Positions 16,605 to 40,446 of a stretch of 64,000 nt of DNA are shown in pieces (positions within the stretch are counted from its first letter, which is position 1; every line of letters starts with the position of its first letter). The DNA is from an uncultured Roseicyclus sp. Its GTDB lineage: Bacteria; Pseudomonadota; Alphaproteobacteria; Rhodobacterales; Rhodobacteraceae. The translations under genes were made by a program, and so were the position numbers. Below the pieces are notes generated by a model. The model was not told the origin of the DNA, made no database searches, and saw only the letters and a list, made by a program, of their open reading frames with translations. Location: NCBI GenBank assembly GCA_947491935.1, contig CANLLF010000001.1, forward strand, positions 310,001-374,000, in the 5' to 3' direction.

Positions 16605-16615
16605 GGGGACACGCC

Positions 16616-19674: not shown

Positions 19675-20180
19675 TGAAGGAACGCGACTGGACCGACCGC
19701 GCCTTGGCCGAGGGTGAGACGATGACCGTCGCTGGCCTTACGATCCATCTTGCGCCCGCCGCGCCGTCCTGCCTGATCTCCGGCGATCTGGAGGCCGCCA
19801 TCGCGGCCCTTGCACCGGGCGGGCGCTCCATTGGCCTGTTTCAGGACCGTCCACTCATCGCAGCCATCCGCATCGCACGGGACCGCGCCCTGCTGGTCGG
19901 TGCGACGGGTGAGCCCGGCTGGCACGACGGCTATGCCATCAGCCCGGCAACAGGCCTCTACACCTGTTTCCAGATCAGCGGCGCGGATGTCATGGACGCC
20001 TTGACCGAAGGCACCGGCGCGGATCTGACGGCATCGTCGCCTGCGGCAAGCCTGCAATTCGCTGGGATCACGTGCCTGTTGACGCGGCAGGGCAAATTGG
20101 CAGAGCTGTGGGTTGAAGCGGCGATGGCGACCTATGTGACCAGTTGGCTGATGGGCAGGGTCCCGATGAAAAGTGCCTAA
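19671..20180 (+). CDS. soxG: Sarcosine oxidase gamma subunit
   Basis: A 169-residue subunit with a short GcvT-like fold that completes the sarcosine oxidase heterotetramer. It starts at the ATGATG that overlaps the soxA stop. The last 4 bp overlap the convergent stop of the Gfo/Idh/MocA gene on the other strand, so no terminator separates the two transcripts. No folate-recycling genes (folD, purU, glyA) follow, unlike in some sox operons. Confidence 0.92.
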   Translation: MMKERDWTDRALAEGETMTVAGLTIHLAPAAPSCLISGDLEAAIAALAPGGRSIGLFQDRPLIAAIRIARDRALLVGATGEPGWHDGYAISPATGLYTCFQISGADVMDALTEGTGADLTASSPAASLQFAGITCLLTRQGKLAELWVEAAMATYVTSWLMGRVPMKSA

Positions 20181-21190
20181 AGCTCTATCCGCCGCCCCGT
20201 CCGCACGCTTTCATCGGCCGCCATACAGATGGCCAGCGACCGCACGGCATCCTCCATATGGCGCGACAGGTCCAGATCCTCAGTAATCGCGCGGCGCATA
20301 TAGGCCTGTTCAGCATCGCAGAGCGCCTGATGCCCCGGCTCCTCCGCCAGGTCGATGCGCTCATCGCCATCGGGCCGATGGACCAGCAGGCTGCCGACCT
20401 TGGTATGACCGTCAATATCAGCACTTTCGCCGGGCTCCGCATCGGTGATGGACACGGAGCCATTGGGGCTGACCACATCTTTCACGAAGAACGCCGTCTC
20501 CGACATCATCGGCCCCCATCCGGCCTCGTACCAGCCGACCGAGCCATCCTCAAACAACACCTGAAACTGACCGTAATTATACATATTCTCGGGCAGTTCA
20601 TCGGAGAGGCGCAGGCCGATCCCATGCACCGCAACCGGGCGCGCATCGGTGATCTGGCACCAGACATCCACGTAATGTACGCCGCAATCCACGATGGGGG
20701 ATGTGGTTTGCATCAGCGCCTTGTGTGTCTCCCACTCCGCGCCGCTGGATTGCTGGTTGAGGTTCATCCGGAACACGTATGGCCCGCCAAGACCGCGCGC
20801 CTCCTCGATCAACCGCATCCAGGACGGATGGTGCCGCAAGATGTAGCCGACTACGAGCTTGCGCCCGGTGGCCTTGGCGCACGCCACAACCCGCTCGGCA
20901 TCGGCAACGCGGGTGGCCAGAGGTTTTTCGACAAACACATGCGCGCCCGCCTCCATCGCCGCGACGGCCAGATCGGCGTGGCTGTCGGAATAGGTGGCGA
21001 TGACGACGAGGTCGGGGGATTGCGCCAAGCCCTCCTCGAAGGTCGCGAACAGCGGGTAGGCTGTCAATGCCTCCGGCAGGTCGCGGGGGCCGCGATTGAC
21101 GAGGCCCACGATCTCCACGCCCTCCGCCGCGTGATGCGCAAGCGCATGGCTCTGCCCCATATTTCCCAGCCCGACGATCAAGACACGCAC
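20177..21190 (-). CDS. Gfo/Idh/MocA-family oxidoreductase (1)
   Basis: A 337-residue NAD(P)-dependent sugar or cyclitol dehydrogenase. Rossmann motif GLGNMGQSHA at 7-16 and the active-site EKP at 88-90 are intact. The C-terminal domain is of the GFO_IDH_MocA_C type. It is the last gene of the long minus-strand run that begins at 30832 and ends against soxG. Which hydroxyl it oxidises is not visible; it sits beside two relatives and an ABC sugar transporter. Confidence 0.85.
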   Translation of the reverse strand: MRVLIVGLGNMGQSHALAHHAAEGVEIVGLVNRGPRDLPEALTAYPLFATFEEGLAQSPDLVVIATYSDSHADLAVAAMEAGAHVFVEKPLATRVADAERVVACAKATGRKLVVGYILRHHPSWMRLIEEARGLGGPYVFRMNLNQQSSGAEWETHKALMQTTSPIVDCGVHYVDVWCQITDARPVAVHGIGLRLSDELPENMYNYGQFQVLFEDGSVGWYEAGWGPMMSETAFFVKDVVSPNGSVSITDAEPGESADIDGHTKVGSLLVHRPDGDERIDLAEEPGHQALCDAEQAYMRRAITEDLDLSRHMEDAVRSLAICMAADESVRTGRRIEL

Positions 21191-21232
21191 GTTAGTCCCT
21201 CCGCTGATGGGCGCCCCACCCAGCCACCCAGC

Positions 21233-22345
21233 CTAACTCTCCAACCGACGCGCCGCGCCGATTTCAACTTCCTTGCCTGTCATCCGCGAGCGCACAGCGG
21301 CAAAAGCCATGGCAAGGCTCTGCAGATTTTCGGCTGCCCCGTTCGACGGCTCCCGATCCTCCTCGATGGCGCAGAGAAGCTCACCCATCGTGCCTGCAAA
21401 ACCGTCATTGAACCATTGGCCCTCAAGCGCGGGTCGGGCGATGCCGTCGGGTGTTGTCAGGGTCACGCGTTGCTGGCTCAGATCCGGGCCATCGGAGACC
21501 ATGCTGCCCGCTGTGCCGCCCACAAAGGTCGTATCGCGCGGCCCGTGGGGCACGCCGCCATCGAAAACAAGCGAGGCCTGCCCGCCATCAATGCGGACCA
21601 TGGCCTGCGCCAGAAGCGGCACCTTGTTGGCCTGCCCCGCCCCGCGGGCAGCAGACGCAAACACGGCTTCCGCCCTGTCGCCGACGACGGAAGCCACGAA
21701 GTCAAACCAATGGACGCCGAAATCGTAGAGGATCAGATCCTCGATCTCGTCAAACGGGGTACCCGCCGTCCAGCCGTGGGTCCAGTGGACCGCCAGATGT
21801 ACGGACAAGACCTGCCCGATATGCCCGGCGCGGGCGGCCTCGCGCATGAAGGCAAAATGGGGTGACCAGCGGCCATTCTGGTTTACGGCCAGCTTCACAC
21901 CCTGATCCTGCGCCAGCTTCACCAGATCCATGCCGATATCCAGGTCGGTGACAAACGGCTTCTGGCTCAGCACATGTTTGCCTGCCTTCAAGGCCGCGCG
22001 CAGGATCTCAACCCGGTGCTCGGGATGCAGCGTTACATCCACCACGTCGATATCGGGATTGGAGAGGATCGCCTCCCACTCCTCCTCGATCCGCGCATCG
22101 GGGCAGAATTCGGCCGCCTTATCTTCGGCCTTGGCCCGCGTGCGGTTCCAGAGCGCGGCCACCTCGTAACCCTGCGCCCGATACGCATCGAGATGGGAGC
22201 CGGAAATGCCGCCAGTGCCGATCACACCGATCCGGGGGCGGAGATGGGTGGGTTTGGGCGGGCGGTAGGCCACGTCAGGCGCCGCGATCTCGGGCAGATC
22301 GGCGGCCTTCAGCGCATAGGTGTCACTGTCACCGGAATCGCTCAT
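21233..22345 (-). CDS. Gfo/Idh/MocA-family oxidoreductase (2), QKP variant
   Basis: A 370-residue dehydrogenase with an N-terminal extension of about 35 residues before the Rossmann motif GVIGTGGISGSH (40-51). The usual EKP is replaced by QKP (128-130), which leaves the catalytic/NAD-binding lysine but changes the glutamate. The start at 22345 is set by the ATGA overlap with the next upstream gene and discards a longer frame running into that gene. Function as sugar or cyclitol dehydrogenase is inferred. Confidence 0.83.
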   Translation of the reverse strand: MSDSGDSDTYALKAADLPEIAAPDVAYRPPKPTHLRPRIGVIGTGGISGSHLDAYRAQGYEVAALWNRTRAKAEDKAAEFCPDARIEEEWEAILSNPDIDVVDVTLHPEHRVEILRAALKAGKHVLSQKPFVTDLDIGMDLVKLAQDQGVKLAVNQNGRWSPHFAFMREAARAGHIGQVLSVHLAVHWTHGWTAGTPFDEIEDLILYDFGVHWFDFVASVVGDRAEAVFASAARGAGQANKVPLLAQAMVRIDGGQASLVFDGGVPHGPRDTTFVGGTAGSMVSDGPDLSQQRVTLTTPDGIARPALEGQWFNDGFAGTMGELLCAIEEDREPSNGAAENLQSLAMAFAAVRSRMTGKEVEIGAARRLES

Positions 22346-23421
22346 GGCAGAAGCTCCATCGTGCGTTTGGCGGCGGCGGATGCCGCGGCGGTGTCCACGA
22401 TCCGCTGGCCAATCAATGAGATGGCAGGCGAAAGCGGGCCTGCGGGATAGGCGCCGTTCTCGATCACATCCAGAACATATTCGATGGCGCCCCGGCGGCC
22501 TTCGGGCAGCGGGTCCACCGGGATCTCGTGGCGCTCGGGCCGCGCGCGGGTCTGGACCGTGACGGTATCGGCGTAATCCGGGCTGGCAATCGTGCCCTCC
22601 GTGCCGACCAGCACGAAACCACATGTCGGCTGCGGCTGAGTTGTCCAGGGATCGGAAAACGTGCCCCAACGCGTTTCCATCTTGCTGAGGCTGCCCCAAG
22701 GATAGCGGCAGACGGCCACGGCGTGCTGGTCCACCTCGACACGCGGCGTGTGATCAATGGTGCAGGTCACTTCAACGGGAGCCTCGCCCCCCATGAACCA
22801 CGTGCCAAGGGTCGCGCCGTATCCCATGTAATCGAGCAGGCTCCCGCCGCCCGATGCCTTCTTGTACCACCAGCTATCGGGCTTCTGGCGCTCCACCTCA
22901 TCGTCGGACACCTCCACCTTGTCGGCCAGATGATAGAGCGGCCCGCGATTGCCATCGTAGAAATGCACCTCGCGCAGATCGCCGATCATCCCGTCTTCGA
23001 TCAGGCGCTTGGCGGTGTTGTGCGACGCGACCCAGGCCAGTGGCCAGTTGATCGCCAGCACCTTGCCCGTCGCCTCCATCGCCGCGATCATCCGGCGGGC
23101 ATGGTCGGCGCTGTCGGCAAAGGGCTTTTCCACGTGGATATGGACGCCATGGGGGGCAAGGCGCTCGGTCATGTCGGCGTGATCGGCGGGCGCGCTGCAC
23201 AGGATCGCCAGATCATAGGGGCCGGCTGCCATGCAGGCATCGAAATCGGTGAAAACACGCGCCTCGGGCACATCGAAATTCTCCACGGCGCTTTGCATTC
23301 GGGCACGGTCGGGATCGTAAAGGCCCGCGATCTCTGCGTCAGGATGTTCAAACACCTCGCGCAGCAGATCCCCCATATGCATGTGATCGAAGCTGATCCC
23401 GACAACACGATATTTGGCCAT
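22342..23421 (-). CDS. Gfo/Idh/MocA-family oxidoreductase (3), atypical Rossmann loop
   Basis: A 359-residue family member. EKP is present at 98-100, but the N-terminal loop reads VGISFDHMHMGDLL rather than the glycine-rich GxGxxG, so NAD binding may be altered or another cofactor mode used. AGGAGA precedes the ATG at 23421. It follows the second permease gene by 10 bp and is coupled to the next dehydrogenase. Confidence 0.82.
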   Translation of the reverse strand: MAKYRVVGISFDHMHMGDLLREVFEHPDAEIAGLYDPDRARMQSAVENFDVPEARVFTDFDACMAAGPYDLAILCSAPADHADMTERLAPHGVHIHVEKPFADSADHARRMIAAMEATGKVLAINWPLAWVASHNTAKRLIEDGMIGDLREVHFYDGNRGPLYHLADKVEVSDDEVERQKPDSWWYKKASGGGSLLDYMGYGATLGTWFMGGEAPVEVTCTIDHTPRVEVDQHAVAVCRYPWGSLSKMETRWGTFSDPWTTQPQPTCGFVLVGTEGTIASPDYADTVTVQTRARPERHEIPVDPLPEGRRGAIEYVLDVIENGAYPAGPLSPAISLIGQRIVDTAAASAAAKRTMELLP

Positions 23422-23431
23422 CCGATGTCTC

Positions 23432-24454
23432 CTATCTTGTCCCGGTGATCCGCACATAAAGCGCCGTCACCAGCAGAATGATCAACCCGAAGAGAGCAAT
23501 CCGCGCGCCCTCGGGCATTTGCAGAAGCGTCAGCATCGTGTCGATGACCCGCAGGATCAACGCGCCCACGATAGCACCGGCAAACGACCCGCGCCCGCCA
23601 AAGATCGACGTGCCGCCAATCACCGCCGCCGCCACCGAGGGCAACATCAGCGGGTTGGCCAGCGACAGGGACGGCGCGCGGATCATCCCAAGGTACAGCA
23701 AACCCGCGACCGACGCGATCAGACCCGACAGCGCGTAGAGTGCCAGAAACACCTGCCACGACCGAACGCCGGAGAGTTTCGCGGCATGCTCATTGGAACC
23801 CAGCGCGAAGAGGAGCCGCCCGAACCCCGTGGCGCGCATCAGCCAGATGATGAAGATTGCAAATGGTATAAACAAGAACAGGCCGTTGGGCATCGCAAAG
23901 GTACGGCCCGTGCCGAGCCATTCCAGAAAGGCCGGGATCTCCGTTCCCGTGGCGATCACGAAGCGCTGATAGACCTGCAGGCACCCGGTTGCGATCAGGC
24001 CGGTGCCAAGCGTCATGATCAGCGGATGCACCCGCACGACGCCCACGCCAAAGCCGTTCACAAGGCCGACGACCACGCCGACGGCCATTGCGATCAACAC
24101 GGCGGGCACCGGCCCAATGAGCGGCATCAGCGTGGCGCAGACAAAGGCCGAGCAGGTCGCCACGATCCCGGCGCTGAGGTCAATCCCGGCGGTTAACATC
24201 GTTAAGACCTGGCAGGCCGCGATCATCGCCAGGGGAATGGCAAACTTGATCAGGTTGCCAACCCAGAAGGTGGAGATGATCCCCTCGCGTCCCCCCAGAA
24301 ACGGCAGGACGATGCCGGGGCGCATGACTTCCAGCAAACTGATCAGGAAGAACAGGAACGCGATCAGGGGGATGACGGGATTGTCGGCGAGGTAGCGGCC
24401 GAAGCGCACGAGGCGCGGGTCCGATGCGGCGGTTTGCTCCGGATGAATACTCAT
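23432..24454 (-). CDS. Sugar ABC transporter permease (RbsC-like, 1)
   Basis: A 340-residue inner-membrane permease of the BPD_transp_2 (RbsC/XylH) family with about ten membrane segments and the family signature around LTAGIDLSAGIVATCSAF. It pairs with the permease encoded immediately upstream (ATGA overlap) to make a heterodimeric channel for the sugar-type ABC importer encoded here. Confidence 0.9.
   Translation of the reverse strand: MSIHPEQTAASDPRLVRFGRYLADNPVIPLIAFLFFLISLLEVMRPGIVLPFLGGREGIISTFWVGNLIKFAIPLAMIAACQVLTMLTAGIDLSAGIVATCSAFVCATLMPLIGPVPAVLIAMAVGVVVGLVNGFGVGVVRVHPLIMTLGTGLIATGCLQVYQRFVIATGTEIPAFLEWLGTGRTFAMPNGLFLFIPFAIFIIWLMRATGFGRLLFALGSNEHAAKLSGVRSWQVFLALYALSGLIASVAGLLYLGMIRAPSLSLANPLMLPSVAAAVIGGTSIFGGRGSFAGAIVGALILRVIDTMLTLLQMPEGARIALFGLIILLVTALYVRITGTR
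24192..24207 (+). repeat. GTTAA-N4-GTTAA motif, copy 5
   Basis: GTTAACATCGTTAAGA lies in the permease gene and reads Leu-Thr-Met-Leu-Thr on the minus strand with two TTA codons. Confidence 0.55.
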
Positions 24455-25389
24455 GCCCGCACCCCCCGATAGGTCACGATGGCCCCCAGCATGACAACCG
24501 CCACCATGATGACCCCCTCCACGATGGTGGTCACGTTCGGGTCCACCGCCGCCAGCGTCAGGATCGTGCGGATGATCCGCAGGATGAAGACCGCGATGAT
24601 CGGCCCGAGGAGCCCGCCGCGCCCGCCACCCAGAACCACGCCGCCCAACACCACGGCCGCGACAGAAGCCAGCAAGTAAGGGCCGGGCACCGGTTCGCCG
24701 ATCCCGGTCAGCATGATGAGGCTCATGCCGCCCATCGCCGCCAGCACTCCACAAAGCGCGTAGGCCGCCACTTTCGTCCAGCCGACGCTCACCCCGGAGC
24801 GGAACGCGGCCAGCTCGTCGGACCCCACCGCATAGATCGACAACCCGATTTTGGATCGGCGCACGGGCATCCAGACGGCGGCAATTGCAACCGCCATCAC
24901 CACCAAAGCCATCGGCAAGCCGGGGAGGATGGAGCCCCCGATGATGCCCTGCATGGCCTCTGTCACATTGCCGCCCGGCGTGGACAGGATCAGCAGCGCC
25001 ACACCCTCCCACACAAACAACATGGCCAGCGTCACCACGATATCCGGCACTTTGGTGATCACGATCAGGGCGCCGTTGATCGCGCCCATGGCCGTGCCGA
25101 TGCAAAGCGTGATCACAATTGCCGGCACCGCCCCCATGCTTTGCATCAGAACCGCTGCCGTCACCCCGCAGACCGCCATCATCGACGCGATCGACAGATC
25201 GATGCCGCCCACGATCACCACAATCGCCATGGCCGCCGTTGCGAAGGCAAAGGGCAGCGCCGCGCGGGCGAGGCTTTCCAACCCCGTGGCTCCGAAGCTC
25301 GGCTGGATCAGCTTGGTGATGCCCAGAAGGGCGATCAGGAGGACCAGCAGGCCAAGAACCCAGGCGTGTTTCTGCACCAGCCGTGTCAT
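24451..25389 (-). CDS. Sugar ABC transporter permease (RbsC-like, 2)
   Basis: A 312-residue permease of the same RbsC family, with the conserved VVIVGGIDLSIASMMAVCG segment. It overlaps the ATPase stop upstream and the other permease downstream by 4 bp each, so subunits are translated together. Two different permeases, rather than a homodimer, are a common variant in this transporter class. Confidence 0.9.
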   Translation of the reverse strand: MTRLVQKHAWVLGLLVLLIALLGITKLIQPSFGATGLESLARAALPFAFATAAMAIVVIVGGIDLSIASMMAVCGVTAAVLMQSMGAVPAIVITLCIGTAMGAINGALIVITKVPDIVVTLAMLFVWEGVALLILSTPGGNVTEAMQGIIGGSILPGLPMALVVMAVAIAAVWMPVRRSKIGLSIYAVGSDELAAFRSGVSVGWTKVAAYALCGVLAAMGGMSLIMLTGIGEPVPGPYLLASVAAVVLGGVVLGGGRGGLLGPIIAVFILRIIRTILTLAAVDPNVTTIVEGVIMVAVVMLGAIVTYRGVRA

Positions 25390-26876
25390 GAAGCCGCCTT
25401 GTCTTCGGTCAGGCCGTAAGCCGCGCGCATCAGGGTTTCCTCATCGGCCTCGGCGGCGTCGATGACGTCGACCACACGCCCGTTGAAGATCACCACGGCG
25501 CGGTCGCAGGCTAGCGGCACCTCTTCCAGCTCGGACGTGTAGAAAAGCACTGCCGCCCCCTGATCCGCCAATTCGCGAACCAGCGGATAGATCTGCCGTT
25601 TGGTGCGGACGTCGATGCCGCGCGTGGGATCGAAAAGGAGCAATGTCTCCACCCCATGGGCCAGCCAACGCCCGATGGTCACCTTCTGCTGGTTGCCGCC
25701 GGACAGGCGCTGCACCTCACCCTTGGCGCGTGTGTCGATCTGCAGCTTGTCGATGGCATGGCCCACCCGCTCGCGCTCGTGGCGCGTCTTCAATGGCCCC
25801 CAAGATCCGGCGCGCGCGGAGAACGGCAGCGCGATGTTTTCGTGGACCGAGCGTTCGCGTAGCAATGCCTCGGCCCGATCACCGGGCACAAAGGTCAGGC
25901 CCGCTGCAATGGCGTCGGCAGGGTGGCCGAAGCTGACGGGCGCGCCGTCCACCTCGAATGCGCCGCCGGTGGGTTTGCGGAACCCCGCAAGGACATCGAA
26001 CACCTCGTCCTGCCCCTGCCCTTCCAACGCGACCACGCCCAGAACCTCACCGGGATAAAGATCAAACGACACATCCGTAACCTTCGGGGCCACGGCCAGG
26101 CCGCGCGCCCGGATCCGCGGTATGCCTTCGTTCGTGCGGGCGGTGCCGGTCTCCCTGGCGCCAAGGTCGATCTTCGCCCCAAGCATCATCTCGACCACGC
26201 GATTCTCGACGCCGGGCTCGATCTTCAGATCACCTACGCTGCGGCCATCGCGCAGAACGGTCGCACTGTCACACAGCTCGGAGATTTCCGTGAACCGATG
26301 CGAGATATAGATCACGCCGCGTCCCTCATCAGCCTGCGCGCGCACAACCCTCAGAACATTTTCAACCAGATCCGTGGGCAATGCGGCGGTCATTTCATCA
26401 AGAAGCAACACGTCAGGCTCAGCCGCCAAAGCGCGGGCGAGATCAAGGATACGAAGCGTTGCCAGCGGCAGATCGGCAATCATGTGGTCGAGGCGAAGGC
26501 CGTCGACTCCCAAGTCGTTAACCCAGTTAAGACATGGATCCACCGGCGTGTCGCCAAGGCGCAGATTGTCCGCCACGTCGAGATCGGGGATCAGCGACGG
26601 CTCCTGATAGACCGGCACAAGGCCGGATCGGCGGGCCTGGGCAGGTGAGCCGACACGCGCCTCCGTTCCCCGGATCAGGACCTTACCGCTGTCGGGCCGC
26701 AGGGCCCCTGTGAGGATTTTCACGAAGGTGGATTTGCCTGCACCGTTGGCGCCCATAAGCGCAACAACCTCGCCCCGCGCCACGTGAAGGCTCGCGTCGC
26801 TCAGCGCCTTGACCGCGCCAAAACTCTTGGCGATTCCGCTCGCATCAAGCAAGCTCTCGCGCTGCACCTCGTCCAT
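25386..26876 (-). CDS. Sugar ABC transporter ATP-binding protein (two NBDs, RbsA-like)
   Basis: A 496-residue tandem ATPase of the carbohydrate-uptake-2 class. The first NBD has Walker A GANGAGKST (42-50) and Walker B LLLDE (157-161), but its signature region (PLATLRILDLARAL, about 137-150) lacks LSGGQ. The second NBD keeps LSGGNQQ but has no proper Walker A, and its Walker B reads LLLFDPTRGID, without the catalytic glutamate. Such asymmetry is partly normal in RbsA proteins, though the first signature is unusually degenerate. It powers the importer formed with the two permeases and the binding protein. Confidence 0.9.
   Translation of the reverse strand: MDEVQRESLLDASGIAKSFGAVKALSDASLHVARGEVVALMGANGAGKSTFVKILTGALRPDSGKVLIRGTEARVGSPAQARRSGLVPVYQEPSLIPDLDVADNLRLGDTPVDPCLNWVNDLGVDGLRLDHMIADLPLATLRILDLARALAAEPDVLLLDEMTAALPTDLVENVLRVVRAQADEGRGVIYISHRFTEISELCDSATVLRDGRSVGDLKIEPGVENRVVEMMLGAKIDLGARETGTARTNEGIPRIRARGLAVAPKVTDVSFDLYPGEVLGVVALEGQGQDEVFDVLAGFRKPTGGAFEVDGAPVSFGHPADAIAAGLTFVPGDRAEALLRERSVHENIALPFSARAGSWGPLKTRHERERVGHAIDKLQIDTRAKGEVQRLSGGNQQKVTIGRWLAHGVETLLLFDPTRGIDVRTKRQIYPLVRELADQGAAVLFYTSELEEVPLACDRAVVIFNGRVVDVIDAAEADEETLMRAAYGLTEDKAAS
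26517..26532 (+). repeat. GTTAA-N4-GTTAA motif, copy 6
   Basis: GTTAACCCAGTTAAGA within the ATPase gene reads Leu-Asn-Trp-Val-Asn on the minus strand. Confidence 0.55.
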
Positions 26877-26909
26877 GACGCCCCTGATTTTCCTGGGATA
26901 TTTCGGGAT

Positions 26910-26936
26910 CTGCCCCCCGCACCGGGCGGAGGGCAG
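26910..26936 (-). terminator. Hairpin between binding-protein and ATPase genes
   Basis: CTGCCCCCCGC pairs with GCGGAGGGCAG (10 of 11 pairs) around a 5-base loop, 14 bp after the binding-protein stop. With no T-run, it is best read as an mRNA-stabilising or partial-termination hairpin that keeps binding-protein levels above those of the membrane parts. Confidence 0.5.
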
Positions 26937-26950
26937 TATGGCTCAGATCA

Positions 26951-27967: not shown

Positions 27968-28020
27968 GGGTAGTCCTCCCTTGGAGTTTTATAAAAGATT
28001 ACAGGAGCTTGGCGCTCTCT

Positions 28021-28935
28021 TTACTTGATATACGGTTGCAAAACGTCCCGGGCGAGGCAGAAGCCCCGCTTCACCTTCTCGTCCGTGCCCTCAAAGTCCC
28101 GATCCTCATGTTCGATGATGACCGGGCCATCGTATCCCACGCGGTAAAGACCGCTGAAAAAGTCGCTCCAATCCACGTCACCGAGGCCGCAGAGCCGCGG
28201 GATCTGCCAGCCCATCCCGGTCGACATCGTGCCGTTTTCATAAAGGCCGTCCCGGTCGACCATCACATCCTTGGCATGAACATGGGCCATCTGGCCGCCG
28301 AACTCCTTGATGAACCGGGTCTGATCGATGAATTGCCAGATCAGGTGGGAAGGGTCGAAATTCATCCCCACAGCCTCCCCCCATTGCTCGAAGAGCCGCC
28401 GCCAAATCTTTGGCGAATAAGCGATATTGTGCCCGCCCGGCCATTCATCGTAGCTGAAGATCATCGGGCAGTTTTCAAAGCACAGCCGCACGCCTGAGGC
28501 CTGGGCATGGGCCACGATGGGGTTGAAGATTTCAATCGCCCGGCCCCAGTTTTCATCGACGGTCAGGCGGCGATCTCCTCCGACGAAGGTGTTAACGACA
28601 TTGACCCCCATGACACCCGCCGCCGTGATCACCTTCATCAAATGGCCGATCACTTCATCCCGATGCTCGGCGTCGGCATGCAGGGGATTGGGGTAATAGC
28701 CAAGACCAGAGATGCGGATGCCGCGTTCGACTAAACCGTCGGCAATCTCGGCACCCTGTGCTGCGGTCAAACCGTCTACGTTGATATGGGACGTGCCGGC
28801 ATAGCGCCGTGCCTCACCGCCCAATGTCGGCCAACAGGCCACTTCCATCGCGGAAAAACCGTTCTTGCCAGCCCAATCGGCCACCTCCATCAGGTCGGTG
28901 TCCTCGAACGGTGCAGTCAATATCCCGAGCTGCAT
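28021..28935 (-). CDS. Sugar isomerase/epimerase-like TIM barrel (IolE/MocC class)
   Basis: A 304-residue AP-endonuclease-2/xylose-isomerase-like TIM barrel. Metal ligands are recognisable: the Glu of LCFENCP, the Asp and His of NFDPSH, the His of HVHAKD and the Glu of IIEHED. Relatives include inosose dehydratase (IolE), MocC and keto-sugar epimerases. It lies 1 bp from the MocA-like dehydrogenase gene and before the binding-protein gene, so it likely acts on the ketone made by the dehydrogenase. Confidence 0.85.
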   Translation of the reverse strand: MQLGILTAPFEDTDLMEVADWAGKNGFSAMEVACWPTLGGEARRYAGTSHINVDGLTAAQGAEIADGLVERGIRISGLGYYPNPLHADAEHRDEVIGHLMKVITAAGVMGVNVVNTFVGGDRRLTVDENWGRAIEIFNPIVAHAQASGVRLCFENCPMIFSYDEWPGGHNIAYSPKIWRRLFEQWGEAVGMNFDPSHLIWQFIDQTRFIKEFGGQMAHVHAKDVMVDRDGLYENGTMSTGMGWQIPRLCGLGDVDWSDFFSGLYRVGYDGPVIIEHEDRDFEGTDEKVKRGFCLARDVLQPYIK

Positions 28936-28936
28936 C

Positions 28937-30097
28937 TCAACCCCCCACTTCGTCCAATCTGACCCAGTGCTCTTCTCGCGCCGACATCACCACCGCGTCG
29001 CAAAACCGCATCTCATAATGACCGTCCTCAAACGTCGCCCAAGTGCTTTCCGGTTGGCGCGTACCCGCTTCAACATCGGCGTATACCGCTCTGAAAAAGT
29101 TGAAAAAACTGTCGGCAAAGCCTTCCACATGCCCCGGCGGCAATGTCGCGGCAGCCGTGCCGGTGCTGTTCATCAAGGTGAAGTCGCGCATCAGCGTCTC
29201 GTTCGCCTTGTCGCGATGGCCGACAAACAAATGATCCGGCGTTTCACTGTCCCAGGCCGCGCTGGCCCTGGACCCCGCCACATCCCATTGCAGGGAGTTC
29301 TTGCGGCCCATATTGATCTGGCTGGTGCTCATCATGCCCCGCACACCGCCTGGATATCGGATGACGATCATGGCGGCGTCATCGGTATCGATCTCGACAC
29401 GTTCGGTGGCGCCGGCGGCACTTGAAAACGTTTCAACCGGTCCCAAGGGCTTTTCCCGTTCCGGGATAAACGTCGCCAGTTCGGCCATGACCGCCTCGGC
29501 CTTAAGCCCGGTCACAAAGCTGGTCAGGTCCACCCAATGGGTGCCGATATCGCCAACCGAGCGCAGCGCGCCGCCCATCTCGGATTGCAAACGCCAGTTC
29601 CAGTCGGTGGGTTTGGCCAACCAATCCTGATGGTAGTGACCTGTAATGAAACGGATGTCCCCCAGGTCCCCCGCCTTCACCATCCCGTGGACCTGTTGGT
29701 TGAGGGGGTAAAACCGGATGTTGTAGCACACAGCGGCGACCCTGCCCGATGCGCGGGCGATCTCCACCATCTCCGCGCTTTCCGCACTGGTCATCGCCAG
29801 CGGCTTTTCGCAGATCACGTGTTTGCCCGCCTGCAGGATTGCCTTCACCTGCCCATAATGTGCGTGGTTGGGTGAGGTGACGTGAACGACGTCGACGCTC
29901 TCGTCAGCCAGAAGGTCAGCCAGATCGGAATAGGCCTTGGCCACGCCCATCTCGGCCGCACGCGCAGCGCCACGTCCGGCAGAGGAGCCCAATACGCCCC
30001 GCACCTGAACGCCCAACCGGCGGAGCGCTTGGGTGTGGACCGTCCCGATGAAGCCAGTGCCGATAACGGCGGCACCGATGCGAGCAAAATCCGTCAT
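28937..30097 (-). CDS. Gfo/Idh/MocA-family oxidoreductase (4)
   Basis: A 386-residue NAD(P)-dependent dehydrogenase with a canonical VIGTGFIG (11-18) and EKP (97-99), and a full-length C-terminal domain. It is the second gene of the minus-strand operon, 12 bp after the SDR gene. Relatives include myo-inositol dehydrogenases, MocA and glucose-fructose oxidoreductases. Compared with the three family members at the operon's far end it is the most canonical, so it may catalyse the first oxidation. Confidence 0.87.
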   Translation of the reverse strand: MTDFARIGAAVIGTGFIGTVHTQALRRLGVQVRGVLGSSAGRGAARAAEMGVAKAYSDLADLLADESVDVVHVTSPNHAHYGQVKAILQAGKHVICEKPLAMTSAESAEMVEIARASGRVAAVCYNIRFYPLNQQVHGMVKAGDLGDIRFITGHYHQDWLAKPTDWNWRLQSEMGGALRSVGDIGTHWVDLTSFVTGLKAEAVMAELATFIPEREKPLGPVETFSSAAGATERVEIDTDDAAMIVIRYPGGVRGMMSTSQINMGRKNSLQWDVAGSRASAAWDSETPDHLFVGHRDKANETLMRDFTLMNSTGTAAATLPPGHVEGFADSFFNFFRAVYADVEAGTRQPESTWATFEDGHYEMRFCDAVVMSAREEHWVRLDEVGG

Positions 30098-30109
30098 GGG
30101 CCGGTTCCT

Positions 30110-30832
30110 TCAAACAACGGAATATCCCCCATCAACCGGAATGGTAACGCCGGTCACGAAGTTCGCGGAATCGCTGGCCAAAAACATTGCCGTCCCCACG
30201 ATATCCACAGGTTGTCCCCAACGCCGCATTGGTGTTCGCGCCTCAACACCTTTCACGAAATCCGGGTCTTGGCGGGCGCGAGCGGATTGATCCGTCACAA
30301 TGAACCCGGGCGCGATCGCATTCACACGAATCCCATCGCTGGCCCAAGCGATAGCAAGGGATTTGGTCATCTGCTCCACTCCGGCCTTGCTGGCGCCATA
30401 GGCCGGGTTCCTGGGGCTTCCAAACCTTGCATACATGGACGCAACATTGATCACTGCGCCATTCCGAAGCGCGTCATGAAACGCCTCGGCGCAGCGTAGA
30501 GAACCCACGAGATTCACGTTCAAAACATGGGAGAAGAACTCAGGATCCATTTCCTCACCGCGTCGGGTGATTGCGGCGCAATTCACAAGAACATCAAGGC
30601 GTTGCGTCCCTCTGGAAAAGGCACGAACGGCTTCGGTATCGGTCACATCAAGCTGCGCATAATCGAACCGTGTTGCATCTTCGGCCGCCGGCTCGGTCTC
30701 GATTCCCGTGATCCGAACACGGGCGCCGGCATCCTGAAACGCCCGCGCAATCGCCGCACCGATCCCGCCACGGCTGGCACCGACAACCAGAACCTCCGCC
30801 CCGGTAAAATCGTGATGCAAGGTCGCGGTCAT
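30110..30832 (-). CDS. SDR-family oxidoreductase (1)
   Basis: A 240-residue short-chain dehydrogenase, first gene of the large operon. The cofactor motif is GASRGGIG (18-25) and the catalytic triad Ser132, Tyr145 and Lys149 (YGASK) is intact; the C-terminus ends in the usual VDGGYSVV. The ATG at 30832 is chosen because the longer frame would run across the operators and into the divergent LacI gene. It probably oxidises or reduces a polyol carbon in the pathway. Confidence 0.87.
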   Translation of the reverse strand: MTATLHHDFTGAEVLVVGASRGGIGAAIARAFQDAGARVRITGIETEPAAEDATRFDYAQLDVTDTEAVRAFSRGTQRLDVLVNCAAITRRGEEMDPEFFSHVLNVNLVGSLRCAEAFHDALRNGAVINVASMYARFGSPRNPAYGASKAGVEQMTKSLAIAWASDGIRVNAIAPGFIVTDQSARARQDPDFVKGVEARTPMRRWGQPVDIVGTAMFLASDSANFVTGVTIPVDGGYSVV

Positions 30833-30877
30833 CCCGCCAACCCCTCTCTCCTGCCATGGCGCATCCCAGCCCCTCCC

Positions 30878-30891
30878 TGTAATCGATTTCA
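30878..30891 (+). promoter_or_regulatory. LacI-family operator, copy A
   Basis: TGTAATCGATTTCA is a near-palindrome centred on ATCGAT with the CG centre typical of LacI-family sites. It lies 46 bp upstream of the SDR start. Confidence 0.7.
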
Positions 30892-30920
30892 TATACCGAA
30901 AAATTGTTCTTTGCGCGTTT

Positions 30921-30934
30921 TGAAATCGATTACA
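30921..30934 (-). promoter_or_regulatory. LacI-family operator, copy B (exact inverse)
   Basis: TGAAATCGATTACA is the exact reverse complement of copy A, 43 bp away centre to centre (about four helical turns), and 60 bp upstream of the lacI-type start. Together they could control both divergent genes by looping. Confidence 0.7.
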
Positions 30935-30994
30935 TACTCCAACCGGGAAGAGATTCGAGTCAACCCGCGATTTGACGAAACAGTCAGAGGTTCC

Positions 30995-32026
30995 GTGGCC
31001 CCGAAAGCAGCAACCATTCAAGATGTGGCCCAAGCCGCGAAAGTATCGACCGCGACGGTCAGTCGCGCATTGTCGAACCCCGATCTGTTGTCCGAGCGGA
31101 CCCGTGCGCAGGTAATGGAGGCGATCAAGACCACCGGATACCGGGTAAATCTGGCGGCACGAAATCTGCGAATGCAGCGCGCGGGTGCGGTTCTGATATT
31201 GGTTCCGAACCTTGGCAAACCCTTCTACTCCACGATTCTCCGCGGCATTTCGGACGGGTTTGCGCGCACCGACTATGCCGTTCTGATCTCGGACACCGAA
31301 AACCGTCCGCTCGCCGATGGAGAATTGGTGGGCAACTTTCTGGACGGGCGCATCGATGGCATCGTCTCGCTTGATGGCGGGATCAGCCCCGCGGCCCTGG
31401 ACCAATGCCGGCACCACAACGTCGATGGCCGCATCGTATTTGCCTGCGAATGGGTGGATGGTTACGCCTTCCCATCGATCCAGTCCGACAATGCCGAGGG
31501 CGCGCGGCTGGCGATCCGGCACCTCTACGATCTGGGCCATCGCAAAATTGCCCATGTCACAGGGCCCCGCGGCAATGTGCTGACCGAGATCCGCCGCCGC
31601 GGCATGTTGGAGGAGCGGAGCCGCCTTCACCTGCCCGCCCGAGGGGATTGGATCATTCGCGGTGATTTCTCGTTGAAATCCGGGCACGACGCCGCCGTTT
31701 CGATCCTGGCGATGGATCCGGAAGATCGTCCGACAGCCGTATTCTGCGCCGCGGACATGGTCGCGTTTGGCCTGATCGCGGGGCTGAGTGCCGGCGGCCT
31801 TGAGGTGCCTGGCGATATCTCCGTCGTCGGATTTGACGATATCGACATGGCCGAAAGCTATGTGCCCGCGCTGACGACAATTCGCCAGGATCGAATGCGG
31901 CTGGGGCAGACCGCGGCTGCGCGCCTTCTGGAGCGTCTCGGCTCCGGCCCTGTGCCCGAGCCACAGGAGGAGCTGCTGCCGGTGGAACTTATCGTTCGGG
32001 ACAGCACGGCGCGGATCGCCAGCTAA
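30995..32026 (+). CDS. LacI-family transcriptional regulator (1)
   Basis: A 343-residue repressor. The HTH is IQDVAQAAKVSTATVSRALSNP (about residues 8-29), followed by the hinge helix (AARNLRMQRAGAV) and a sugar-binding domain of the periplasmic-binding-protein fold. The GTG at 30995 preceded by AGAGG is preferred because it gives the standard short N-terminus. It is divergent from the SDR/ABC operon and shares the operators at 30878 and 30921, so it very likely controls that operon and itself. Confidence 0.9.
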   Translation: MAPKAATIQDVAQAAKVSTATVSRALSNPDLLSERTRAQVMEAIKTTGYRVNLAARNLRMQRAGAVLILVPNLGKPFYSTILRGISDGFARTDYAVLISDTENRPLADGELVGNFLDGRIDGIVSLDGGISPAALDQCRHHNVDGRIVFACEWVDGYAFPSIQSDNAEGARLAIRHLYDLGHRKIAHVTGPRGNVLTEIRRRGMLEERSRLHLPARGDWIIRGDFSLKSGHDAAVSILAMDPEDRPTAVFCAADMVAFGLIAGLSAGGLEVPGDISVVGFDDIDMAESYVPALTTIRQDRMRLGQTAAARLLERLGSGPVPEPQEELLPVELIVRDSTARIAS

Positions 32027-32031
32027 CCTGG

Positions 32032-32757
32032 TCATGGTGCCGCTCCTGCGATCCACTGTTCAAGATCAAGCGCCGAACCGGTGAGTGGGGCGGAGGCGTC
32101 GGAGAGCATCCACACGACCTGAGCCGCGCAATCCCCGGCGGTGATGAATTGCCCCAAAGGCTGCACCGCCGCCCGCGCATCCATCCAACCGGCCCCATGG
32201 GTCGCGTCTTGCATGGCACGCTCCGTTTCCGTCGCCACCCAGCCAAGGTTAATGCCGTTAACCCTTATCCGATCCGCCATATGGGCCTGTGCCGCGTTTT
32301 TCGTCAGCGTCTGGAGCCCGCCCTTGGTGGCGGCATAAATCGCGAGGTCGGGACCACCGCAATGGGCGTTCATCGACTGGATGTTGACGATGGACCCGGC
32401 CGCCCCACGCCCCTTCAGGTGCCGGATGACCTCTGACATCAGAAAGAACGGCGCGCGCAGGTTCACCGCAATAAGGTGGTCGAACCGCTCGACATCCGCA
32501 TCGGTGAAGGAGGCGCGGGTGGTGATCCCGGCCGCATTCACCAACCCATCGATCCGGCCCGCCCGCTCAAGGGCCTGCGCCATGATTGCGGCCGGAGCAT
32601 CGGGCGCAACAAGATCCGCCTGGATGCCATCCGCCATCGCGTCGCGATCCACGCCCAATACCTCCGCCCCGGCCCTCGTGCAGGCGGCGGCAATCGCAGC
32701 CCCGATGCCCCGTGCGGCACCGGTGACCAGCAGCACTTTGCCCGTCAGGTCGCTCAT
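32032..32757 (-). CDS. SDR-family oxidoreductase (2)
   Basis: A 241-residue short-chain dehydrogenase with GAARGIG (13-19) and the catalytic Ser128, Tyr141 and Lys145 (YAATK). It is the last gene of the desaturase/Rieske/PanB-like operon, overlapping the PanB-like stop by 4 bp, and ends 6 bp from the convergent LacI gene. Confidence 0.87.
   Translation of the reverse strand: MSDLTGKVLLVTGAARGIGAAIAAACTRAGAEVLGVDRDAMADGIQADLVAPDAPAAIMAQALERAGRIDGLVNAAGITTRASFTDADVERFDHLIAVNLRAPFFLMSEVIRHLKGRGAAGSIVNIQSMNAHCGGPDLAIYAATKGGLQTLTKNAAQAHMADRIRVNGINLGWVATETERAMQDATHGAGWMDARAAVQPLGQFITAGDCAAQVVWMLSDASAPLTGSALDLEQWIAGAAP
32248..32263 (+). repeat. GTTAA-N4-GTTAA motif, copy 7
   Basis: GTTAATGCCGTTAACC in the second SDR gene reads Val-Asn-Gly-Ile-Asn on the minus strand. 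It has the same 16 bases as copy 1 in another reading frame. Confidence 0.6.
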
Positions 32758-33545
32758 CCGCCGATCCCGTTCAGAAACGCGTCGAAGGCTCCGTCACGCA
32801 TGGCGACCACATGGTCCTTTGCCGGAAACGCCCCGCTTTGAACATCGGCGGCAAATTCGCGGAACGCCGCCACGCGTTCGTCCTGCAACCGGGCATATTC
32901 AGACGCGAAGTCGCGATAGGCCTTGGCGTGCCGCGGCACGCGGGATTTGCCTTCGCCCAGGATATCCTCGGCGAACACGTATTGCGCGTCACATCCCGCA
33001 CCGGATCCCATCGACCACAGCAAGATGTCCAGTCGCGCAGAAATGGCGGCGGCGACTTCCGCGGGCACAACTTCGATCTCGACGGCAATCGCCCCGGCCT
33101 CCTGATAGCGGCGACAGGCCTCAAAAATCTCGATGGCACCGGCGGCATCACGGCCCTGCGCGCGGTAGCCCATCCATCTGTCCCGCGCGGGAATGATACC
33201 CACATGGCCCACGATGGGAATATGCTCACGCGCGAGGTATTCGACCGTCTGAAACGAGCCCGAGCAATAAAACGCATCCGCTCCGGCCTCCGCCATCGGG
33301 CCACACCAGCGCAGGTAATCCTCGGCCGTACCCGCGCTCAGATGCGTCTGGCCCGTCATCGAAAACACGCCCGGCGCCGCGTCGCGGTAACGCGGATCGG
33401 CCACCAGTTCCGGCGGAACCGACGCAATGTCGATGCCAGCGGCCTCCGCAGCCGCCGCCTCATCCATGGTGAAATACCGCAGCATCGTCATCTGGCGCTG
33501 CCCCTTGGCCGCGCGCAGATCGGCGATGGTGGGCCTTTGCCTCAC
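32754..33545 (-). CDS. PanB-like (ketopantoate hydroxymethyltransferase family) protein
   Basis: A 263-residue TIM barrel of the PEP mutase/PanB superfamily. The middle resembles PanB (IPIVGHVGIIPARDRWMGYRAQGRD, then AIAVEIEVVPAEV and a C-terminal SGAFPAKDH), but the family's GIGAG motif reads MGSGAG and the N-terminal metal and substrate loop is not recognisable. PanB transfers a hydroxymethyl group from methylene-tetrahydrofolate to a 2-oxo acid; this divergent copy may be a 2-oxo acid aldolase or a C1-accepting enzyme. The GTG at 33545 overlaps the Rieske stop. Setting among catabolic genes argues against pantothenate synthesis. Confidence 0.78.
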   Translation of the reverse strand: MRQRPTIADLRAAKGQRQMTMLRYFTMDEAAAAEAAGIDIASVPPELVADPRYRDAAPGVFSMTGQTHLSAGTAEDYLRWCGPMAEAGADAFYCSGSFQTVEYLAREHIPIVGHVGIIPARDRWMGYRAQGRDAAGAIEIFEACRRYQEAGAIAVEIEVVPAEVAAAISARLDILLWSMGSGAGCDAQYVFAEDILGEGKSRVPRHAKAYRDFASEYARLQDERVAAFREFAADVQSGAFPAKDHVVAMRDGAFDAFLNGIGG

Positions 33546-33853
33546 ACCTGCACCTGGATGCGACCTTCGGCGATCCGGGCCGGATAGGTCGTCAGCGCCA
33601 CGCAGGCGGGGGTCCGCAGGGCCGCCCCGGTCTTGTAATTGAACCGGCCGTTGTGTTTCGGACATTCGATTTCGTCGTCAAGCACCAAGCCATCGGCCAG
33701 ATGCACCTGTTCGTGGGTACACAGGCCGTCAGTGCAAAACGGAGTGCCATCCTCGTCGCGATAGACAGCAAAGGTGCGGCCAACATGATCGAAACGGATC
33801 ACGTCTTCCTCCTCGATCTCACCTATGGCGCAAACATCGACCCACTCGCTCAT
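33542..33853 (-). CDS. Rieske [2Fe-2S] ferredoxin (MocE-like)
   Basis: A 103-residue soluble Rieske protein with ligands Cys45-x-His47 (CTH) and Cys64-x2-His67 (CPKH). It is encoded 1 bp after the desaturase gene, the arrangement of the rhizopine genes mocD and mocE, in which the ferredoxin feeds electrons to a di-iron oxygenase. The ATG at 33853 lies right after the desaturase stop. No ferredoxin reductase (MocF counterpart) is in the window, so an unlinked one must serve. Confidence 0.88.
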   Translation of the reverse strand: MSEWVDVCAIGEIEEEDVIRFDHVGRTFAVYRDEDGTPFCTDGLCTHEQVHLADGLVLDDEIECPKHNGRFNYKTGAALRTPACVALTTYPARIAEGRIQVQV

Positions 33854-33854
33854 A

Positions 33855-34937
33855 TCAACTCGCCTCCGGCAATGAGGTTTCGGTGTGGAAAGCCTCCACA
33901 TAGGGCTTGGCGCCGGGCGGAAGGGCGCGGCGCGCAAAGTATCCGGGCTCGGTCCGCTGGCGCAGCACCGCGGCGATCATCTCGGCATAGGCATGCGGGA
34001 TCGACGGGTTCGCAGGCGGCAGGTCGTCCTTGATCAACTCATGCAGCGCGGGCAACGCGTGGTAGGGCACCATCGGAAACATGTGGTGTTCGACGTGGTA
34101 ATTCATGTTCCAGTAAAGCCAGCGGCTGACCGGGTTCATGTAAACAGTGCGGGAGTTCAGTCGGTGATCGAGGACGTCTTCGGCCAGCCCGCCATGCTGC
34201 AAGAGCCCCACCAGAACCATGTGCCACGTGCCATAGATCCGCGGCCCTCCGATCAGCATCAGCGGCAGGACAGACCATGTCAGCAGCGCCAGAAGCAGGG
34301 CCACAAGGTGCAACCCAACGAAAAGCCGCGCCCAGAACATCACCTTGGTAACCTCGCTTTCCGGGATGTAATCGGCCTCCTCGGCGTTCGGGCCGCTGAT
34401 GGCCTGCCGCACCAACACGCCGAAATGCTGGAAGGCATCCGGTATTCCGATAAAGGCCAACGCTTTGCGAGCAATGTCGGGGGGCCGCATGACGGTGATC
34501 TCGGGATCTCGTCCGACAATGATTGTATCGGTGTGGTGGCGCGCATGGCTCCAGCGCCACGCAACCGGATTGCGCAGCACCATGAAGCTGGCAAGGGCAT
34601 AGACCCAATCGTTTTTCCACTGCGTCTTGAACGCCGTTCCGTGCCCGCATTCGTGCCACCGGCTGTCACAGGCCGAGCCGTAGAGCACGCCGTAAACCAG
34701 AAAAAACGGCACCGCCCACCATGTGCCCCAGGTGGCAACCCCACCAATGCCTGTCAGCAACAACAGGCCCAACCACAGGATTGTATCACGGGTTGCGGCG
34801 CCGTCATTCCGGCGCATCAGGCCCTTCATGATCTTGCGCGGCACGTCGGTGTGATACCATTCGGCCGAGGCCAGCCCGACGGCAATCGCGCGGTCCCGCT
34901 CCGGGCCGATCAGGGAATAATCCCGTGCTGGTGTCAT
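33855..34937 (-). CDS. Fatty-acid-desaturase-fold di-iron oxygenase (MocD-like)
   Basis: A 360-residue integral membrane di-iron enzyme. Three histidine boxes are complete: HECGHG (95-100), HARHH (131-135) and HVEHH (281-285), with hydrophobic segments between them. The fold includes fatty acid desaturases, alkane hydroxylases and MocD, which is thought to O-demethylate rhizopine. Pairing with a Rieske ferredoxin rather than cytochrome b5 or rubredoxin supports the MocD-like reading. First gene of its operon, divergent from the second LacI gene. Confidence 0.85.
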   Translation of the reverse strand: MTPARDYSLIGPERDRAIAVGLASAEWYHTDVPRKIMKGLMRRNDGAATRDTILWLGLLLLTGIGGVATWGTWWAVPFFLVYGVLYGSACDSRWHECGHGTAFKTQWKNDWVYALASFMVLRNPVAWRWSHARHHTDTIIVGRDPEITVMRPPDIARKALAFIGIPDAFQHFGVLVRQAISGPNAEEADYIPESEVTKVMFWARLFVGLHLVALLLALLTWSVLPLMLIGGPRIYGTWHMVLVGLLQHGGLAEDVLDHRLNSRTVYMNPVSRWLYWNMNYHVEHHMFPMVPYHALPALHELIKDDLPPANPSIPHAYAEMIAAVLRQRTEPGYFARRALPPGAKPYVEAFHTETSLPEAS

Positions 34938-35180
34938 CGCTTCCCCCTTCGCAATCTGCCGTGCCCCCTTTGCGGCCGGGGCGGCTCACCTCAGCTTTGC
35001 AGCCCAGATCAGGATCGCGGGTCCCGCACTGGGAGTCAACAAATCCTTGATGCAAAATGAGGTGGACTTAGCTTCGCGTGCATTCTTGGACCGCGCTCCC
35101 ATCGCCTAAGGCCATATTTTATTGACAGCCAAACAGATTTGACCGATCACCTCAAAAAACATCAATAGGGACACCCTCCC
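34938..35180. promoter_or_regulatory. Divergent promoter region between desaturase operon and LacI gene
   Basis: A 243-bp gap separates the two divergent starts. It contains a TTGACA box (35122-35127) and a loose inverted repeat TTTGA-N9-TCAAA (35138-35156) upstream of the LacI-type gene. No ATCGAT-centred palindrome like the one at 30878 is present, so the second LacI protein must recognise a different sequence. Confidence 0.35.
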
Positions 35181-36200: not shown

Positions 36201-36210
36201 TGCAGATCAA
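36197..36210 (+). promoter_or_regulatory. Perfect FNR/FnrL-type box
   Basis: TTGATGCAGATCAA is a perfect TTGAT-N4-ATCAA palindrome, the consensus for FNR/FnrL oxygen-responsive regulators. It overlaps the last codons of the LacI gene and lies about 70 bp upstream of the DUF6455 start, a distance suited to activation from near -41. Confidence 0.75.
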
Positions 36211-36272
36211 AGCGCGGATGCGCGCGTGACGGCACCTTGCTCATGTCCACATGCATGGGAGGACACCCACGA

Positions 36273-40440: not shown

Positions 40441-40446
40441 GCGCAA

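Follow-up and report, generated by a model that had tools for sequence, protein, structure and literature searches.

Which compound is broken down by a gene cluster that joins relatives of the rhizopine O-demethylase proteins to genes for sugar uptake and oxidation, and why does a homologue of PanB (ketopantoate hydroxymethyltransferase) lie among them? Both questions are raised by a 64,000-nucleotide stretch from an uncultured Roseicyclus sp. of the family Rhodobacteraceae (contig CANLLF010000001.1, positions 310,001 to 374,000; here, the window). A preliminary description had seen, at 20177 to 34937, an oxidative cluster likened to rhizopine or methyl-cyclitol catabolism. Profile matches recovered every gene class that it named, i.e., four Gfo/Idh dehydrogenases, a binding protein, an IolE-like protein, a MocD-like oxygenase, a MocE-like ferredoxin, two short-chain dehydrogenases/reductases (SDRs), a PanB-like protein, and two LacI regulators, and, as it had stated, no kinase family was matched by any gene scanned from 20177 to 37492. 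Its list omitted the ATP-binding cassette (ABC) ATPase and two permeases (23432 to 26876), and the second LacI gene lies outside the region that it covered. We propose, with belief and doubt about evenly balanced, that the locus is an inducible module for the catabolism of a sugar or cyclitol bearing an O-methyl group, combining import, O-demethylation by MocDE, transfer of the released one-carbon unit to tetrahydrofolate (THF) by the PanB-like protein, and keto-sugar chemistry.

MocD, MocE, and the genes kept with them

Our point of reference was a locus of Phyllobacterium zundukense (L154; L numbers denote fetched loci), in which a MocR protein (765.1 bits; cutoff, 650) adjoins mocD, mocE, and mocF. 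The MocD protein of the window is 63% identical to that of L154 (223 of 356 residues) and 62 to 73% identical to plasmid proteins, mostly from Rhizobium and Sinorhizobium, among the 60 records listed of 283 matched. MocE is 66% identical to its L154 counterpart and passes the curated family model (TIGR02377, 159.6 bits; cutoff, 136.15). By these measures, the kinship of MocD and MocE to the rhizopine O-demethylase proteins is genuine, as had been supposed from the outset. Nor does 33855 to 34937 encode a true acyl-lipid desaturase: the DesB desaturase model gave 28.1 bits (cutoff, 500), and the nearest desaturase-like (PF00487-like) protein of the same genome is only 30% identical. Although MocD does match the PF00487 superfamily, model score and pairwise identity set it far apart from such desaturases. 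A search for a solved structure related to MocD found none. In the Bahar 1998 model, the mocDEF trio is said to remove the O-methyl group. According to PMC10107442, mocDEF is part of the rhizopine catabolic system, with a mocD promoter that responds to rhizopine by induction.

Oxygenase and sugar genes recur together in other genomes. In an alphaproteobacterial metagenome-assembled genome (L014), the genes for MocD, MocE, the PanB-like protein, Gfo3, Gfo2, Gfo1, two permeases, the ATPase, the binding protein, and the IolE-like protein all lie within 12 kb, nine of them at 60 to 83% identity, MocE at 58%, and one permease at 32%. A single run in L177 (genome G475) reads MocD, MocE, PanB-like, SDR, Gfo4, IolE-like, binding protein, ATPase, and permease, at 55 to 75% identity, and the same run, minus the PanB-like gene, is found in L179 and L182. 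Because the oxygenase and sugar genes are kept together in all four loci, we regard them as one system; the association goes beyond chance, and the single catabolic module for a methylated sugar or cyclitol that had been envisaged earlier is plausible. Relatives of MocE, SDR1, LacI2, and SDR2 follow the gene order of the window in Cribrihabitans (L022), and LacI1 relatives sit divergent to mocD in many loci. Among 79 MocD neighborhoods fetched (5 kb), MocE was present in 47, the PanB-like protein in 37, and both in 32.

Beyond the oxygenase, the likeness to the rhizopine system fades. With the mocABCRDEF system described in PMC10107442 and PMC6668481, the window shares orthologue-like MocD and MocE, sugar ABC import, a Gfo/Idh dehydrogenase, and an IolE-like TIM barrel, and the rhizopine locus L154 also has a PanB-like protein; the window differs in that LacI replaces MocR, MocF is missing, the binding protein and dehydrogenases are of other kinds, and two SDRs are present. 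The MocR of L154 had no match in the window at E 1e-6, two LacI genes being present instead. No MocF was found in the cluster; a search of the genome with the MocF of L006 gave a best match of 44% identity on another contig (C4), with HcaD and AndAa, both under cutoff, as the nearest curated models. The binding protein is 28% identical over 219 residues to the one beside mocR in L154 and scored 20 bits on NF052284 (cutoff, 420), a poor yardstick, as the L154 protein itself gave no match at E 1e-15. The Gfo/Idh protein that we label MocA in L154, from its position beside mocR, is 26.9% identical to Gfo4 and 26% identical to Gfo1 over 194 columns and had no match to Gfo2 or Gfo3 at E 1e-6. For MocC, which we take to be an IolE-type protein, the IolE-like protein was compared with its L154 counterpart (30% identity over 100 residues), and its TIGR04379 score is far under the cutoff (Table 1). 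The binding, IolE-like, and Gfo/Idh proteins of the window are at most distant relatives of MocB, MocC, and MocA, the kinship of the Gfo/Idh proteins to MocA being at superfamily level only. With five counterparts (MocF, MocR, MocB, MocA, and MocC) absent or distant, we rejected the idea of a rhizopine locus; judged from its gene content, the cluster would act in methyl-ether demethylation, but it is not the system for rhizopine.

The PanB-like protein and its proposed one-carbon role

Members of the PanB-like clade are labeled in annotation as the vitamin B5 enzyme (e.g., in L006, L007, L010, L012, and L154). The window protein, 52% identical to that of L154, falls under the cutoffs of the curated PanB models (TIGR00222, 95.9 versus 207.55 bits; NF001452, 114.6 versus 272 bits). 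The best fold matches of its AlphaFold model (mean pLDDT, 92.3) are PanB structures (ranks 1 to 28; TM score, 0.60 to 0.69), and it shares with PanB the fold, H136, and E181; at the positions of Escherichia coli PanB D45, D84, K112, and E114, however, it has P, G, Y, and S, respectively. Across 91 rows of the clade, H136 and E181 are each kept in all 91, and D84, K112, and E114 in none; at the D45 position, the six commonest letters, which account for 83 of the 91 rows, do not include D. We take D45, D84, and E114, listed with K112, to be the Mg2+ ligands of PanB, in a metal site that presumably holds the keto substrate, and E181 to be its catalytic base, and we likewise assume a role for H136; a literature search on these residue roles found no supporting paper. 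D84 and E114 are also missing from five other PanB homologues, which retain D45 and K112, so part of the ligand loss is not unique to the clade. In a quick tree with long branches, the 91 rows lie on one side of a branch (SH-aLRT, 100), opposite two true PanB proteins and five other homologues; true PanB had been sampled from 13 genomes, being over the cutoff in 3 and usable in 2 (L257 had no open frame with the motif). On tree and alignment, the PanB-like proteins are a separate clade without the residues aligned to the presumed Mg2+ ligands.

Among 248 genomes of the family, MocD (E 1e-60) occurs in 65, the PanB-like protein (E 1e-55) in 57, and both in 41 (odds ratio, 17.8; Fisher P, 2e-17, uncorrected for kinship). 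Within 3 kb, a PanB-like gene accompanies 38 of 82 MocD places, and MocD accompanies 39 of 89 PanB-like places. PanB-like contigs were also scanned with a query alignment of nine members, all of them oxygenase linked, and the best 80 of 103 relatives were kept; these 80 loci include several near-identical single-cell genomes, so that the fractions are not independent counts and the sample is not neutral. Within 7 kb of the PanB-like gene lay a MocE ferredoxin in 40 of the 80, MocD or a PF04116 "sterol desaturase" oxygenase in 39, both in 37, and MocF in 24. MocD and the PF04116 oxygenase are two unrelated di-iron types, and L065 has a PhyH gene as the partner; among the PanB-like rows having a partner, the oxygenase type switches at least four times on a quick tree. 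Cooccurrence and synteny led us to reject the PanB-like gene as a chance neighbor. The preliminary description was correct in noting its presence, but the protein is more than an added aldolase: it recurs beside such oxygenases, a rhizopine locus included.

Nine loci (L006, L007, L030, L039, L047, L150, L154, L155, and L156) encode PurU and/or FolD close to the PanB-like gene. The order in L154 is mocR, mocD, mocE, mocF, PanB-like gene, and purU, with a FolD-like stretch next, at 16504. Sinorhizobium meliloti BL225C (L155) has the same order, its PanB-like gene being split over two frames (L155:14770-15575), which we ascribe to a frameshift or sequencing error; intact relatives exist. This PanB-like/PurU/FolD tail is absent from the published rhizopine gene lists consulted (mocABCRDEF). 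In a literature poor in subscription journals, no paper was found that joins "rhizopine" with "formyltetrahydrofolate deformylase," and one containing "rhizopine" and "hydroxymethyltransferase" deals with serine hydroxymethyltransferase. PanB itself uses methylene-THF. Because the metal site is lost and the base kept, because unrelated demethylases adjoin, and because FolD and PurU follow it in some operons, the PanB-like protein fits a carrier of one-carbon units to folate, and we predict that it passes the released unit to THF. More broadly, and with rather more doubt than confidence, we suggest that the clade is a new family that would hand the one-carbon unit from oxidative demethylases (MocD, PF04116, and perhaps PhyH) straight to THF, as formaldehyde or a hemiacetal, formaldehyde never becoming free; this would be an overlooked step in the breakdown of rhizopine and methyl polyols, in organisms from rhizobia to bacteria of the ocean.

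Several observations weigh against this role and against the module as proposed. Neither MocD nor a PF04116 gene was found within 7 kb in 41 of the 80 scanned PanB-like loci, including those of Pelagibacter, Verrucomicrobia, Planctomycetes, and Actinomycetota, and the neighbors scanned for some of the Verrucomicrobia and Actinomycetota genes revealed no common partner. PurU or FolD lay within 7 kb in just 3 of the 80, our genome has no PurU over its cutoff, and we know of no THF site in a PanB-like protein. The window protein deviates from its own family at the nearly invariant positions 123 to 132, a loop that is the weakest part of the structure model. The cluster, moreover, has no MocF. Finally, L179 and L182 have the module run without a PanB-like gene, and their genomes (G566 and G625) have no PanB-like protein at E 1e-55; from these gene sets, we conclude that the PanB-like gene is a frequent yet dispensable module part.

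PanB-like genes were also seen in other arrangements. In L201 and L035, two of them adjoin in opposite cassettes; one cassette of L201 has MocD, and the other has a PF04116 oxygenase, IolG, and a transporter. Marine single-cell genomes (L056, L057, and relatives) have two MocD-like genes, MocF, MocE, one or two PanB-like genes, and a PF04116 oxygenase, to which L056 adds an SGL lactonase and an IlvD/Edd-type sugar-acid dehydratase; these clusters look like methyl-sugar oxidation in ocean bacteria. In L062 and other Pelagibacteraceae, the PanB-like gene is part of an inositol cluster with DUF1907, ketopantoate-reductase-like, and 2-oxoglutarate-oxygenase-like proteins.

Substrate and competing explanations

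In the scheme that we propose, the CUT2 transporter would import the methylated sugar or cyclitol, and MocE would feed electrons to MocD, the reductase coming from elsewhere in the genome. MocD would hydroxylate the O-methyl group, the methyl leaving as formaldehyde, and the PanB-like protein would move the one-carbon unit to THF. Conversion of the freed polyol, via keto intermediates, to a sugar of central metabolism would then fall to both SDRs together with the Gfo/Idh proteins and the IolE-like TIM barrel. Oxidative methyl-ether removal with release of formaldehyde is also a feature of the P450 demethylation of 6-O-methyl-D-galactose in marine bacteria (PMC10033563); the oxygenase family differs.

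As to the sugar chemistry, the curated model nearest to Gfo4 is that of levoglucosan dehydrogenase (NF052479, 176.6 bits), at a score well under the LgdA cutoff of 650. The structure relatives of the IolE-like protein are weak ones (PDB 2zds, 67.3 bits; 8ro4, a 2-hydroxy-3-keto-glucal hydratase, 23 bits). An affinity of the binding protein to ribose-type binders, named from the start as a sign against the rhizopine-like reading, is partly upheld, its best curated models being YtfQ (66.6 bits) and RbsB (59.1 bits) but both far under cutoff. As described in PMC7676230, the levoglucosan cluster consists of LacI, a binding protein, an ATPase, two permeases, LgdA, LgdB, and LgdC. With that pathway (LgdA-LgdB1-LgdB2-LgdC), the window has in common LacI, a binding protein, an ATPase, two permeases, Gfo/Idh dehydrogenases, and a sugar-isomerase-type protein, whereas it adds the O-demethylase and the PanB-like protein. 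The Gfo4 model, the TIM-barrel similarity, and the levoglucosan-like gene set together suggest, by analogy, that a methylated sugar or glycoside is processed through 3-keto-sugar chemistry.

A methylated cyclitol is also a possible substrate. In one version, MocDE would demethylate an O-methyl-inositol (pinitol, ononitol, or bornesitol type) and the product would join the inositol pathway of the host, an explanation that we consider conceivable but unlikely. Host IolD (784.2 bits; cutoff, 715) and IolG (421.7 bits; cutoff, 355) are encoded approximately 32 to 40 kb to the right, on the same contig, and the host inositol cluster (L141, G000:C1:374001-392000), right of the window, also holds an IolB-like protein and a binding protein that, at 267.8 bits (cutoff, 420), is closer to the rhizopine-binding model than that of the window. 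Elsewhere, PanB-like genes adjoin IolG over the cutoff in the methyl-inositol-type relatives L007 and L008 and IolD over the cutoff in Pelagibacter (L062), and 17 of the 79 family MocD loci have an IolG relative within 5 kb. Among loci of the mocDEF-PanB-like kind, those from rhizobia and Rhodobacteraceae that also contain IolG, LacI, and a TIM barrel (L007, L023, L156, L195, and others) resemble the window in having LacI divergent to mocD, with mocE and the PanB-like gene in one run; they have MocF and/or IolG and another transporter, whereas the window has Gfo4, the IolE-like protein, and a binding protein of its own type. The module itself, however, contains no IolG or IolE over the cutoff, its binding protein is not of the IolG-locus type, L177, L179, and L182 have no IolG match, and Gfo4 is closer to levoglucosan dehydrogenase than to IolG. 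Literature searches on pinitol and methyl-inositol yielded nothing useful.

For the PanB-like protein, the main rival to a folate-linked role is a retro-aldol reaction on a C-hydroxymethyl group: a C-methyl branch, e.g., of a C-methyl cyclitol, would be hydroxylated and the CH2OH removed by PanB chemistry in reverse. PanB itself forms such a bond, the presumed base E181 and H136 are kept throughout the clade, and the dehydrogenases of the cluster could make the ketone needed. We nonetheless think it improbable: the presumed Mg2+ ligands that hold the keto substrate of PanB are gone, relatives occur in the rhizopine locus, where the substrate is an O-methyl ether, and there are modules without a PanB-like gene.

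That operons A and B (see below) are unrelated neighbors, with the PanB-like protein perhaps also serving pantothenate synthesis, seems to us quite improbable. There are two LacI genes, rhizobial plasmids have mocDE and the PanB-like gene without operon B, and TIGR00222 matches no other gene in our genome, the PanB-like gene itself being under the cutoff. Genes of both operons do occur together, however, in L014, L177, L179, and L182. Since eight genomes of the same genus that were searched also lack a PanB over the cutoff, and since the PanB-like protein is found in only 57 of the 248 family genomes, it is not a general vitamin gene; the lack of PanB in these genomes suggests pantothenate dependence or another route. 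Last, service in rhizopine (3-O-methyl-scyllo-inosamine) catabolism is hardly credible: the identities to the L154 proteins (MocD, 62 to 63%; MocE, 66%; PanB-like protein, 52%) are outweighed by the lack of a MocR match and of MocF, by the distant MocA, MocB, and MocC relatives, and by a mocDEF-PanB-like set on pSymB of S. meliloti (L005) besides the rhizopine-type set on pSymA (L155), because of which the oxygenase is not a rhizopine marker.

Gene layout, surroundings, and significance

Operon A (minus strand, 34937 to 32032) comprises mocD, mocE, the PanB-like gene, and SDR1. With mocD and mocE 1 nucleotide apart and 4-nucleotide overlaps at both the mocE/PanB-like and PanB-like/SDR1 junctions, it is translationally coupled and probably a single transcript. 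Operon B (minus strand, 30832 to 20177) runs from SDR2 through Gfo4, the IolE-like protein, the binding protein, the ATPase, and two permeases to Gfo3, Gfo2, and Gfo1. The mechanical open reading frames 33542-33937, 32754-33665, and 30110-32056 begin too early, and their starts were corrected (Table 1). Each operon has one divergent LacI gene; LacI1 would control operon A, and LacI2 would control operon B. The pattern AAATCGATTNCA, with at most 1 mismatch, has six matches in the window (0.87 expected), four of them in the SDR2-LacI2 gap, on both strands. No such palindrome pair, and no conserved operator, was found ahead of mocD, and promoter and terminator scans did no better than on shuffled sequence.

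Table 1. Features of the cluster and of the block to its left (positions within the window; scores in bits)
Feature	Position	Strand	Evidence and remarks
DMGDH-like protein with GCV_T domain	10712-13159		
MTTB-type methyltransferase	13156-14691		
Sarcosine oxidase-like genes	15066-20180		
Gfo/Idh dehydrogenase 1 (Gfo1)	20177-21190	-	PF01408, 89.7
Gfo/Idh dehydrogenase 2 (Gfo2)	21233-22345	-	PF01408, 73.2; start ATG 22345
Gfo/Idh dehydrogenase 3 (Gfo3)	22342-23457	-	PF01408, 64.4
ABC permease B	23432-24454	-	PF02653, 109.5; start ATG 24454
ABC permease A	24451-25389	-	PF02653, 101.6
Sugar ABC transporter ATPase	25386-26876	-	PF00005, 137; two matching stretches
CUT2-type sugar-binding protein	26951-27967	-	PF13407, 178.5; every curated model far under cutoff
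IolE-like TIM barrel, sugar isomerase/dehydratase type	28021-28935	-	PF01261, 109.5; TIGR04379, 34.8 (cutoff, 290)
Gfo/Idh dehydrogenase 4 (Gfo4)	28937-30097	-	PF01408, 100.7; nearest curated model levoglucosan dehydrogenase, below cutoff
SDR dehydrogenase 2 (SDR2), operon B start	30110-30832	-	PF13561, 192.8; ATG 30832
Two LacI-type operator palindromes, SDR2-LacI2 gap	30878-30891 and 30921-30934		14 bases each
LacI regulator 2 (LacI2), divergent from SDR2	30995-32026	+	PF00356, PF13377; start GTG 30995
SDR dehydrogenase 1 (SDR1), operon A end	32032-32757	-	PF13561/PF00106; NF004847, 281.8 (cutoff, 240)
PanB-like protein (PanBx)	32754-33545	-	PF02548, 125.4 (cutoff, 28.7); GTG 33545 overlaps mocE stop
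mocE, MocE-like Rieske [2Fe-2S] ferredoxin	33542-33853	-	TIGR02377, 159.6; C-x-H ... C-x2-H at residue 45; ATG 33853
mocD, MocD-like membrane di-iron oxygenase, predicted O-demethylase	33855-34937	-	PF00487, 132.5; His boxes HECGH (95), HARHH (131), HVEHH (281)
LacI regulator 1 (LacI1), divergent from mocD	35181-36200	+	PF00356, 51.6; PF13407, 158.9

A methylated-amine block (10712 to 20180) converges on the cluster from the left. Its folate-using genes (sarcosine oxidase, DMGDH-like, and MTTB) were rejected as part of the module, since no close relative lies beside the module in the fetched loci, matches of 25 to 31% in L156, L211, and L248 being all that was found. To the right, the LacI1 gene is separated from a DHDPS-family gene by one for a small DUF6455 protein (36237 to 36500). 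A separate catabolic block (37450 to 46724) encodes a xanthine dehydrogenase-type molybdenum cofactor subunit, a TRAP transporter, proteins resembling 3-HAO and glutamine synthetase, and a Rieske oxygenase (45372 to 46724).

Plant cyclitols and algal sugars commonly carry methyl ethers, whose removal by bacteria is known for few cases. The new point here is the PanB-like protein, a member of a separate clade that lacks the residues aligned to the presumed Mg2+ ligands of PanB and recurs beside oxygenases of this kind. If our reading is correct, the rhizopine demethylase would be put to a second use in the window, and the PanB-like clade would mark methyl-ether catabolism and supply a missing one-carbon step from demethylation to folate.

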